From NCBI GenBank assembly GCA_913061075.1, contig CAJXSK010000001.1, positions 124,001 through 188,000 on the forward strand: DNA of 64,000 nt, given 5' to 3'. This DNA is from an uncultured Piscirickettsiaceae bacterium. GTDB taxonomy: Bacteria; Pseudomonadota; Gammaproteobacteria; Methylococcales; Cycloclasticaceae. The notes beneath the pieces are model-generated. The model had not been told where the DNA came from, did no database searches, and saw only the letters and a program-made list of their open reading frames with translations. The translations under genes and the position numbers were made by a program. This document shows, piece by piece, positions 46,035 through 53,395 of the stretch (position 1 is the first letter of the stretch; each line of letters starts with the position of its first letter).

Positions 46035-46145
46035 AGTTTACAGGCTTTTGGGTGCAAAATACTTGATTTATTTGTTCAACGGTGTTCTATTCATACAAGC
46101 GATTTTTCGCTAAATAATTATAAAAACTTTAAATAGGAGGAAGGC

Positions 46146-47114
46146 ATGTTGCATACAAGCCTGAGATTAGTAACAGGATTAATGTTTCTAGGTTACGGAG
46201 CGTTCTTGTTTGCGTACGAAACAGAAACTGACATTGTAGAACCAAAACTTGAAGCTGCGAAGGTGTACCAGGTAGCTGATTATCGTAATTCCGGTGCTGA
46301 TGGGAGTACTTTATATATTAAAAACTCAAACTTTAGAGTTGTTGATAATATAGGCTTTTATATACCAGACTTGGTTGTAAAAGCTACGCCAAATGACAGT
46401 TCCCAACCTTTAGTATTTGATGACCCAACTTCATTTTCTCTTACACCTTTAAAAGGTAGTGTTGTTTTAGATAGCGCTAAACTTGAAGCATTATTAAATA
46501 AAAAAGTATTTGCATTTAAGGGCGCAACGTTAAGAAATATCAAGGTTAAAACAGCAACGAATGTATTAACATTAAGTGGTCAATTAATACGAAAAGGCCT
46601 GTGGGTTCCTTTTGAGCTTAAGGGTGATATTAAACTAGAAGATGGACATATTTTAAAATACCGTCCTTGGAAAGTGGTTACCGATGGTCAAGATGCAACA
46701 AAAGTTCTTAAAGTAGCAAACGTTGAAATTGACGAACTATTAACGGTTAGAGGACCTGGAGCTAATCTTATAGGTAGCACGGTTGTTCTTGATACATTAA
46801 AACTTTTCCCACCACCTACACTTAATTTAAACATCGCAACAGCCTCCATGGAAGATCGCGGTTTAGTGTTAACGTTTGATAATGGGAGTGGTTCAGACGC
46901 TTCTACATTAGCTGACAGTAATAGCTATATTTTAATTAAGGGCGGTGATGTTAAATTTATGAAGGCAGTGCCAACGAATGCTAGGGTGCAAGTTATGAGT
47001 GCCTCAGAAAATGCAGATCTTGATTTTTGTTTATATGATTATAGAGATCAGCTTTCAGCAGGGTATTTGAAAGTAAAAGAAGATGGCGCAATATTGGCCT
47101 ATTTGAAAAATTAA
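46146..47114 (+). CDS. Secreted protein of unknown family, paralogue A
   Basis: I do not recognise this family. The 322 residues begin with a hydrophobic export signal (about 1-23, LVTGLMFLGYGAFLFA). The mature protein looks all-beta: it has repeated valine/leucine-rich strands and no cysteine pairs. Segments shared with the next gene are R(N/D)SGAD, NIGFYI, VFDD, GSVVL, LFPPP, NSYI and LYDYR. The middle (LTLSGQLIRKGLWVPFELKG, near 138-157) loosely recalls lipid-binding DUF2993-type repeats; I rate that weak. It has a very strong AGGAGGAAGG ribosome-binding site, so high expression is likely. Confidence 0.8.
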   Translation: MLHTSLRLVTGLMFLGYGAFLFAYETETDIVEPKLEAAKVYQVADYRNSGADGSTLYIKNSNFRVVDNIGFYIPDLVVKATPNDSSQPLVFDDPTSFSLTPLKGSVVLDSAKLEALLNKKVFAFKGATLRNIKVKTATNVLTLSGQLIRKGLWVPFELKGDIKLEDGHILKYRPWKVVTDGQDATKVLKVANVEIDELLTVRGPGANLIGSTVVLDTLKLFPPPTLNLNIATASMEDRGLVLTFDNGSGSDASTLADSNSYILIKGGDVKFMKAVPTNARVQVMSASENADLDFCLYDYRDQLSAGYLKVKEDGAILAYLKN

Positions 47115-47146
47115 AACGGCATCTGACCTGATTAGGAGTAAATAAA

Positions 47147-48442
47147 ATGCATTATAAAAAAATTATAAAAATTGCAATGGGCATGCTGTTAACTGTTGGA
47201 GTTTCAAGCAGTTTAATGGCTGATTCATTTATCAATAAGCAACAACAAGACCTTAAAAATGCTCGTGCACAATGGCAACAAAAAAACATACCATCAGGTA
47301 TGCAAGCGGGTGATTTGAGGGAGACAACTGAACGCGATTCTGGTGCTGATAATGTTTCAATGTACTTACAAAACGTTAATTTTGACGTAGTAGAAAATAT
47401 TGGTTTTTACATCGAAAAGTTAAAAGTAACGCTTGAACCTAAAGTGGCGGGTAATCCAGTTGTATTTGATGATGTTGAAAGCTTTACGATCAATGTTCAT
47501 AGTGGCTCGGTTGTTTTGAGTCCTCAAGTTATCACCGACTTATTCAATAATCATATTTTGGATTATTGGCCACGTCCTCTAGATGAGTTAACTATCACAA
47601 CAAAAGATGATTACTTAGAAGTTGAAGGAGATCTGAAACTTTGGAGTTGGTTTCCAGGTATTTGGTTACCTGCAGACCTAGGTGGTAAAATTGTTCTTAA
47701 TGGTGACAATAAGTTAGTCTACGAGATTGACGATGTGCGAGTTCTTGGTATTCCATTATACGGCTTATTAAGCGCTATCTTTATTGACCTTGACCTGTTG
47801 TTATCAATTGAAAGGGAAGGCGCTGAGTTAGTAGACAGTGTATTGGTGCTCGATCATACGTCAGTGTTTCCACCACCAGCACTTTCTGGCCGCATAGCTT
47901 CTGCTAGCTTAGATTCTGACGGTTTGCGTTTAGTGTTTGCTGATAATGATTCTGCTACATTCTCTAAACCTTCTGTGGCTGCAAATAGTTATATTTGGGC
48001 ACAGTCTGGTGATCCAAGGTTATTCGACATTGTTGTGAATAATGGCACTGTGCAAGTGCTTCCTGAAGATGCAAGCAAACCGCTTCGTTTTAATCTTTAT
48101 GATTATAGGAAACAAGTGGCTGCTGGAACGCTCAAGATGGCAAAAAATGGCGATATTATTGCAACTGTTCCCTCATCAGAAGGGCCAGATTATAGAGCAT
48201 CTGCTTCTTCATCTAACAGCTCATCTCCGGCGTCATCAGAACCAGATGCTGGGTGTGTGAACAGGGCTGGTTTTAATGTTTGCGAGGAGAAGGTAGTTAA
48301 AAAAATGACGCCAGTTAAAGCAGCTGTTGTTAAGGTTAAAGAAACTGTTGCTCCATTAACTACTGACGATAAAATTAGTCTTAAAACTGTTAAAGCAGGC
48401 ACATGTTTCAACCGTGCTGGTTTCGTAGTTGATTGTATGTAA
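47147..48442 (+). CDS. Secreted protein of unknown family, paralogue B, with repeated Cys motif
   Basis: The 431 residues start with a signal peptide (about 1-25, ending SSLMA) and contain the same beta-rich body as the gene 32 bases upstream, with the same landmark motifs. About 85 extra C-terminal residues form a Ser-rich linker (ASASSSNSSSPASS). Two near-identical cysteine motifs follow, CVNRAGFNVC and CFNRAGFVVDC, separated by a Lys/Val-rich stretch. The motifs could form disulphides or bind a ligand. Function is unknown. The pair ends with a strong terminator, so it is a two-gene operon. Confidence 0.8.
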   Translation: MHYKKIIKIAMGMLLTVGVSSSLMADSFINKQQQDLKNARAQWQQKNIPSGMQAGDLRETTERDSGADNVSMYLQNVNFDVVENIGFYIEKLKVTLEPKVAGNPVVFDDVESFTINVHSGSVVLSPQVITDLFNNHILDYWPRPLDELTITTKDDYLEVEGDLKLWSWFPGIWLPADLGGKIVLNGDNKLVYEIDDVRVLGIPLYGLLSAIFIDLDLLLSIEREGAELVDSVLVLDHTSVFPPPALSGRIASASLDSDGLRLVFADNDSATFSKPSVAANSYIWAQSGDPRLFDIVVNNGTVQVLPEDASKPLRFNLYDYRKQVAAGTLKMAKNGDIIATVPSSEGPDYRASASSSNSSSPASSEPDAGCVNRAGFNVCEEKVVKKMTPVKAAVVKVKETVAPLTTDDKISLKTVKAGTCFNRAGFVVDCM

Positions 48443-48460
48443 TAAGTGTTATTTGTTTGA

Positions 48461-48488
48461 AAAATGCCCCGTTTGGGGCATTTTTTTT
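48461..48488 (+). terminator. Terminator after the secreted paralogue pair
   Basis: A 10-bp stem (AAAATGCCCC / GGGGCATTTT) with a 4-base GTTT loop runs into eight further Ts. Confidence 0.93.
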
Positions 48489-51547: not shown

Positions 51548-53311
51548 TTAACCTTCTTTGATTGTTTTTTGAAGGGTATATCGTGTGAATACGGCATTTG
51601 TTTCAACTAACTTAGAAATGGTGTAGGTTTCTAGCTGGCTCTCAATTTTCAATTCTAAATTGATTCGGGTGTTTTCTAGCGGGGATATGCTAATAATTGC
51701 ATCGGGTTGGTTTAATTTTTCAACGCTAGGTAAAAATAGAACCTCTCTAGAGCGTATTGATTTATCAGTATTGCATATAACACCCAATTTGATATTGGGT
51801 GCTATTAGTTCAACGCCTAATGAAATTCCATCACCTTCAAGATTATCAAGGCGACGAATGATTGCAAGTTCAAGTTTTTTTTCCTTTATTGTCTCAATAC
51901 CGATTAAATCAGCTGCTTGTAGTAAAGATTTATTTTCTTGCGAAACTTTGAACCTGAATCCAGATGCACTAGAGTCTTTTTGAATAGCATCTAAATGATT
52001 CGCATTTCCGGTTTGTTTGGTGTTTTTATTTTTGCTCCATATATCCACTGACTTTATTGTTTTGTGATCTGTTTCTTTAATAACACGACCTATATCTTTC
52101 TCGCTTCTTAAAAAATTATTACCATGAGTGTTATTCGCAAAAGGGTTGTTTTCTATAGGTATGATTTCAACATTGGATAGGCCAAATGTACTCTGTTTTT
52201 TGCCTGTCGGTTTTCTACCAAGTGAAACAGACGGGGTATCATTGGGAAATAATTTTTTAATAATGTTTTTAAACCCAGGGTAAATAACGATTTCTTTTGA
52301 CTCGTCCGTGCGGGCAAATTGTCGATTGTGCGGTTTTTGCCAGCAGGGCAGTAGTTTTTGAATGACAGCACTGTTTAGTAATGTTTTATTTGCAGATTTA
52401 TCTAACGCCAGTGATGTGAAGTGTTGCGTTAATAATTCATTTTCAAAGAAAAGAATGTTTTCTTCGTGTTCTTGATAAGCGTTAATATTTGTAACTTCTA
52501 GATTTTTATACGGATTAATAAAAAAACTGGTGTGTTCGGTTTTTTCTTTAGTTAGTGAAACAGTTTGTGCTTGACTATTAATAATATCGTGAATCTTTAA
52601 AATATCTCTCTGACGAAATCTATTCAACAAAGCAAGGTGGGTATAATTTATTTTAATGAACTCGTTAGTAATGTTGGAGGATGCATGTTTATTTTCACTA
52701 TTTATTCCAGTTTCTATATTATCCAACGCGTAATTTTGAGCATGGCATAGCAACGCGTTGGTTTCATCCCAATTGCAAACCGCGCTTGTGCGATAAGTTA
52801 ATGAAGAGAAAAGTTGGATAAGACTCAAGAGGCTTAATATTCTATGAATGATAATCGCTTGTTGGTGTTGATTAAATATACGGTGTTCTTTCTGATTCAT
52901 ATGGGATGTTTCAGAAGAAAAGCTGTCCGATTTAATAATATCTACGTATACATCTATGAATGCATTCAAGACTGACAGTAGTTTTTCTACCAAATAGTTT
53001 GATTTATCTTCTAGAGGAAACTTAGCATCGATGACTTCTTTAATACATTCATCATAAAACACATATAAATTGGGAATGATCTTTTCTATTAATGTGAACC
53101 TGGTTTTATCGCTAAGTTTGTTTGTGAGAATGGCTGATGCTGCAATGTTAAAATTTTCACCGATAACAGTTACATTTAATATGGGAAGGTTTTGAAGCCA
53201 TTTGCTAATACCGTCATCCGTGGGAGAAAATGGTAAGACTTGCGTGTCGATTATACTCGTTGGGTTACGAAGTCGATCTTCTTGAGATTTTTGAAACGAT
53301 TTGTTTTCCAT
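51548..53311 (-). CDS. Hypothetical protein next to fimX, possible PilZ-like C-terminus
   Basis: Not recognised with certainty. From the ATG at 53311 it has 587 residues; an in-frame TTG two codons earlier is less likely. The first 300 residues are mostly helical with no signal peptide or membrane helix. The centre is polar and Lys/Asn-rich. The last 140 residues are beta-rich (ELAIIRRLDNLEGDGISLGVELI), loosely like a PilZ barrel, but lack the RxxxR c-di-GMP signature. It is 33 bases upstream of the fimX-like gene in one operon, so a cytoplasmic signalling or scaffold role with it is inferred. Confidence 0.7.
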   Translation of the reverse strand: MENKSFQKSQEDRLRNPTSIIDTQVLPFSPTDDGISKWLQNLPILNVTVIGENFNIAASAILTNKLSDKTRFTLIEKIIPNLYVFYDECIKEVIDAKFPLEDKSNYLVEKLLSVLNAFIDVYVDIIKSDSFSSETSHMNQKEHRIFNQHQQAIIIHRILSLLSLIQLFSSLTYRTSAVCNWDETNALLCHAQNYALDNIETGINSENKHASSNITNEFIKINYTHLALLNRFRQRDILKIHDIINSQAQTVSLTKEKTEHTSFFINPYKNLEVTNINAYQEHEENILFFENELLTQHFTSLALDKSANKTLLNSAVIQKLLPCWQKPHNRQFARTDESKEIVIYPGFKNIIKKLFPNDTPSVSLGRKPTGKKQSTFGLSNVEIIPIENNPFANNTHGNNFLRSEKDIGRVIKETDHKTIKSVDIWSKNKNTKQTGNANHLDAIQKDSSASGFRFKVSQENKSLLQAADLIGIETIKEKKLELAIIRRLDNLEGDGISLGVELIAPNIKLGVICNTDKSIRSREVLFLPSVEKLNQPDAIISISPLENTRINLELKIESQLETYTISKLVETNAVFTRYTLQKTIKEG

Positions 53312-53395
53312 GAACAAAAAATAGTGTCTTTGATTAAGACTTAGTATAGTTGAGTTTTGAAAACTAACTAGTTGGTCTACAGAACTTATAAGTAT

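Follow-up and report, generated by a model that had tools for sequence, protein, structure and literature searches.

To our knowledge, how hydrophobic molecules, lipids among them, traverse the periplasm of Gram-negative bacteria is understood only in part, few bacterial carriers of the TULIP type have been described, and DUF4403 proteins are not known to be encoded as split genes. The E. coli protein YceB (DUF1439, PF07273; PDB 3L6I) has been described as a TULIP that binds lipids, and DUF4403 (PF14356) is a pseudodimer of two TULIP domains (PMC5507252, PMC6791001). LmeA, of the DUF2993 family (PF11209), belongs to a predicted TULIP family (PMC6791001). We compare these systems with a pair of adjacent genes, A and B, found in a 64,000-nucleotide stretch of an uncultured Piscirickettsiaceae genome (GCA_913061075.1, contig CAJXSK010000001.1, positions 124,001 to 188,000; hereafter the window). 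We propose that A and B make up, as its two subunits, a single protein of the cell envelope, a heterodimer that would bind a lipid or another hydrophobic ligand, a reading to which we assign a probability of roughly 0.42. The A/B family is best seen as a variant of the known two-domain proteins of the envelope and not as a new kind of system.

The host genome, that of a marine Cycloclasticus bacterium, is 2.26 Mb in size, and the gene order in the window is prmB and aroC (both named by eye), an MFS transporter gene, A, B, a terminator and a 5'-nucleotidase gene. Gene A (46146..47114, + strand), delimited from its open reading frame, orthologues and an AF2 model, encodes 322 aa with a signal peptide (residues 1-23) and a beta-rich core, and has no Cys tail. 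Gene B (47147..48442, + strand), delimited from its open reading frame, BLASTP, relatives and an AF2 model, encodes 431 aa that comprise a signal peptide (residues 1-25), an N-terminal QQ-containing helix, a beta-rich core homologous to A and a C-terminal tail. Both export signals are clear by eye, and the signal of the A relatives in Cycloclasticus ends ALA/YET. The first-pass annotation had regarded A and B as homologous secreted paralogues within one operon, a view open to refutation if the two bodies proved not to be homologous. They align over 277 residues with 37% identity (BLASTP, E 4e-52), they are separated by a gap of 32 bp with A first, and the description can be retained. The six landmark motifs that it had listed are common to both proteins and follow the same order (R(N/D)SGAD, NIGFYI, VFDD, GSVVL, FPPP, LYDYR), but the fifth had been given as LFPPP and reads VFPPP in B. 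Purifying selection on both genes is strong (dN about 0.12-0.23, dS saturated). The very strong ribosome-binding site and strong terminator noted at the outset are also borne out: AGGAGG precedes A (46135..46140, + strand, ATG 5 nt downstream), AGGAG precedes B (47134..47138, + strand, ATG 8 nt downstream), and an intrinsic terminator with a 12-pair stem and a T run follows B (48459..48486, + strand; -18.1 kcal/mol, z -4.2), none of 200 shuffles being equally good.

The suspicion that the family was unrecognised is corroborated by the searches. Neither A nor B has a Pfam match at E<=1, and their relatives give only spurious weak matches at E<=10; comparisons with NCBIfam (no match at E<=1), PHROGs and PDB sequences return nothing beyond chance for the family. 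No description of it was found in the literature on TULIP proteins, YceB and Cycloclasticus. The A/B family is without a name in the libraries searched. It was seen in genome assemblies only: tblastn searches of the plasmid records with B, the fused Burkholderiaceae protein described below and a Pseudomonadaceae B gave no match.

The idea that A and B could bind lipids, to be checked by structure prediction for a groove-type beta fold, finds a lead in the model of B and none in that of A. The AF2 model of A has a pLDDT of 81 and a pTM of 0.80; that of B has a pLDDT of 72, with a moderately confident core and a disordered tail. The two models were built from one mixed A/B alignment and are not independent of each other. 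No match with E < 0.001 was obtained for either model by Foldseek against the PDB. The first match of the B model is E. coli YceB (3L6I_A, probability 0.96, E 0.023, TM 0.41 on the YceB length), followed by weaker matches to LBP, SPLUNC1, LprG and plant fibrillin, and the order of strands and helices predicted for the core, b-a-b-b-b-b-a-b-(a)-b-b, agrees with that of YceB as read by eye. For the A model, YceB is not among the best 50 matches listed, and nothing stands out. At the profile level, hhalign comparisons of 42-110 family sequences with YceB or DUF4403 score no better than column-shuffled nulls; as a positive control, the same method aligns YceB with DUF4403-C at E 1.2e-5, from shallow alignments of 7 and 3 sequences. 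The DUF1439 profile matches none of 18 family members at E<=10, and the host genome contains no match to DUF4403 or to DUF2993 (PF11209). Sequence homology to YceB, DUF4403 and LmeA was looked for and not found, no Pfam or profile link rising above the null.

YceB is the protein whose fold the B model matches best, and it resembles A/B in having a similar order of strands and helices and an envelope location, but it is a lipoprotein of about 186 aa encoded by a single gene, whereas A and B are paired, measure about 300-400 aa after export and carry an extra N-terminal hairpin and a C-terminal beta region. DUF4403 is an exported protein that unites a pair of related domains, as does the fused A-B lipoprotein of Burkholderiaceae; its halves, however, are of about 200 aa, and A and B are split in the window. 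LmeA is exported like A and B, but a membrane helix at its N-terminus serves as an anchor, and members of the A/B family have no PF11209 match in Pfam. TULIP is the leading fold hypothesis for A/B, although membership is not established by the profile tests. We put the binding of a hydrophobic ligand by A/B at slightly below even odds. The fuller proposition, that A/B would constitute a new tubular lipid-binding family in which an obligate heterodimer of ancient paralogues serves as a BPI-like carrier, with a Cys-loop docking tail in one marine lineage, appears rather unlikely.

What is conserved is the A-B pair. The family is found in 12 of 61 relatives, each with at least two copies, and a profile search detects it in 2 further genomes among 369 of the class Gammaproteobacteria, as well as in Burkholderiaceae and in one genus of Pseudomonadaceae. 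In larger samples it is present in 95 of 379 Burkholderiaceae genomes (4 genera) and in 21 of 378 of Pseudomonadaceae (1 genus), again with at least two copies each; these last two family labels are our own reading from gene content. Altogether 130 genomes bear the family and none carries a singleton. Within Cycloclasticus the distribution is patchy, with the family present in 5 of 10 high-quality genomes; the pair is wholly absent from the other five (G004, G005, G014, G016 and G017). At every locus where the order was read, A comes first and B follows it on that strand. In the tree, A and B proteins form separate, well-supported clades (95/98), so the duplication is old, it predates these lineages, and both copies were retained. 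The exception is the long-branched first gene of the G230/G337 pair, which falls near the midpoint root and whose placement is not firm. One of these two genomes, G337, also has a further A-B pair on contig 25 (L059:4051-6176), which is very divergent and whose first member has a lipobox-like ALAGCSS; this pair adjoins a short-chain dehydrogenase gene and a DsbC-like gene, both named by eye.

The genes are separate in Cycloclasticus and Pseudomonadaceae, and in Burkholderiaceae they form one lipoprotein. There, a single open reading frame of about 760 aa carries the A and B domains in 16 of 16 translated loci, with about 11-20 residues between the domains and no second signal peptide on the B part, and the N-termini are lipobox-like (e.g. 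ALALLCAGCAE). Each half of the fusion groups with its own clade, A or B, in the tree. One Burkholderiaceae genus, g501, looks split by open-frame lengths and lies outside the 16 translated loci. Since A and B are always paired, and fused in the Burkholderia relatives, each is probably half of a single envelope protein. Fusion and obligate co-inheritance are the best evidence here for A and B acting together and argue strongly for it; from the same two facts we infer that A and B make physical contact.

We favour the following arrangement as a working model of the envelope heterodimer. A and B are exported, as their signal sequences show; they descend from one ancestral beta-rich domain and are inherited as an A-then-B unit. 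Their location is probably periplasmic, where the A-B heterodimer would be soluble in Cycloclasticus, and the fused lipoprotein would be tethered, probably to the outer membrane. The dimer may bind a lipid or some other hydrophobic ligand, in an arrangement that would resemble that of TULIP proteins such as BPI and DUF4403, with two related domains facing each other.

The C-terminal tail of B contains a Ser-rich linker (residues 351-364, 48197..48238, + strand) of low pLDDT, and two Cys loops located by motif search, CVNRAGFNVC (residues 370-379, 48254..48283, + strand) and CFNRAGFVVDC (residues 420-430, 48404..48436, + strand). The two copies of a Cys/Asn-Arg-Ala-Gly-Phe motif first reported in B are thus real, and their codons differ. 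The host genome has two DNA matches to the loop motif and none to a reversed-pattern control. A search for such tails across genomes had been suggested; the C-x-N-R-A-G-F loop is confined to the end of B, and within the genus the DNA pattern matches B tails only, with one exception. That single extra NRAGF match at the DNA level, in G004, falls within purM but in another frame and was set aside as chance. Most Cycloclasticus B proteins have two loops with different codons, and the B of G008 has lost the first. A single loop, CxNSxGFxxxC or CINSIGFNIC, occurs in G023 and G029, outside Cycloclasticus, and in the divergent G009. The loop is absent from the Burkholderiaceae, Pseudomonadaceae and UBA6134 proteins. 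By this sequence comparison the tail at first had a single Cys-bounded loop, which was then doubled within Cycloclasticus, and it is a lineage-specific arm and not a signature of the family. Because distant members lack it, the tail is likely not needed for the core function. The first-pass annotation had overlooked this lineage-specific nature, together with the obligate pairing and the fused form. Since B is exported and each loop has a pair of Cys residues, the tail may be a flexible Ser/Lys-rich arm whose small end loops are probably closed by disulphides and which likely docks the complex to a partner.

The strongest alternative is that the obligate envelope heterodimer is a structural or protein-docking module, such as a scaffold or the base of an adhesin, with no small-molecule ligand and with the Cys-loop tail as its docking part. 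The disordered Ser/Lys-rich tail with its Cys loops does resemble an interaction arm, and the lack of a significant fold match to ligand-binding proteins and of a profile link to TULIPs is consistent with such a role. However, lipid-binding proteins account for the top fold match of B and for many of the weak ones, and Burkholderiaceae and Pseudomonadaceae keep the core but have no such tail. We consider this alternative unlikely.

The gene neighbourhoods raise another possibility. The neighbours of the pair vary by lineage, and none is a clear lipid gene, some of the names being given by eye. The pair is followed by folA in Pseudomonadaceae; in Burkholderiaceae, pheS-pheT-ihfA-merR lies upstream or liv-type ABC genes adjoin. 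In the distant Gammaproteobacteria G230 and G337, a PEPCK gene lies directly 3' of the pair (L057:11240-12973 and L058:11042-12727), confirmed by Pfam in the former and by eye in the latter. In Rhodoferax sp. UBA6134 (L032), genes for a PQQ methanol/ethanol dehydrogenase and a c-type cytochrome lie directly 5' of A-B, and in Methylococcaceae UBA2780 (L061) A-B follows a pqq operon (pqqB, a gene of the PqqC family, a short ORF that by eye resembles pqqD, and pqqE) and a TonB receptor gene, the latter retained as a flanking gene in L031. At the Rhodoferax locus (L032:2541-11224), one strand carries the genes for the PQQ alcohol dehydrogenase and cytochrome c together with the A-B pair and a methyltransferase gene; the methyltransferase has weak similarity to cyclopropane-fatty-acid synthase, and genes matching TIGR03863 and TIGR03866 occupy the facing strand.

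It can be hypothesised from these loci that A-B assists PQQ-dependent alcohol oxidation in the periplasm, by handling the cofactor, lanthanide or the substrate. In the tree, the A-B proteins of these loci are nearest to those of Cycloclasticus among all the relatives from outside that genus, and a dehydrogenase of this type is present in Cycloclasticus too. Yet PQQ genes were not found beside the pair in the window, in Pseudomonadaceae, in Burkholderiaceae or in the G230/G337 lineage, where the neighbours are unrelated. Moreover, PQQ-type dehydrogenases are universal in the order sampled: all 61 relatives have matches to them, whether or not they carry A-B, which makes the co-occurrence uninformative. 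The PQQ context is suggestive for the closest-outgroup branch, not in general, and as an account of the family we judge the accessory role improbable. An extracytoplasmic enzyme with an active site at the R..S, FDD, GD and LYxxR positions is very improbable, for although charged residues such as R24, D69, D70, D193, D245 and R277 (A mature numbering) are invariant in 16 A and B sequences, neither the fold nor the sequence searches gave a match to an enzyme, most of the conserved positions are common to both paralogues and scattered over the domain as folding residues would be, and few stay invariant once distant members are included.

Whether as a ligand-binding heterodimer or otherwise, the family offers a handle for experiments, being widespread, unnamed, always paired and fused in Burkholderia. 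Should no lipid be bound, A/B would still be a conserved two-part envelope module without a family model. The eye-catching Cys repeats call for caution, as they are a local addition and not the core of the family. Elsewhere in the window, positions 51548-53317 encode a protein of 589 aa that Pfam does not match at E<=1; its gene adjoins a GGDEF-EAL gene, and a similar pair of open reading frames is found in another Cycloclasticus genome (L060:3005-6871).
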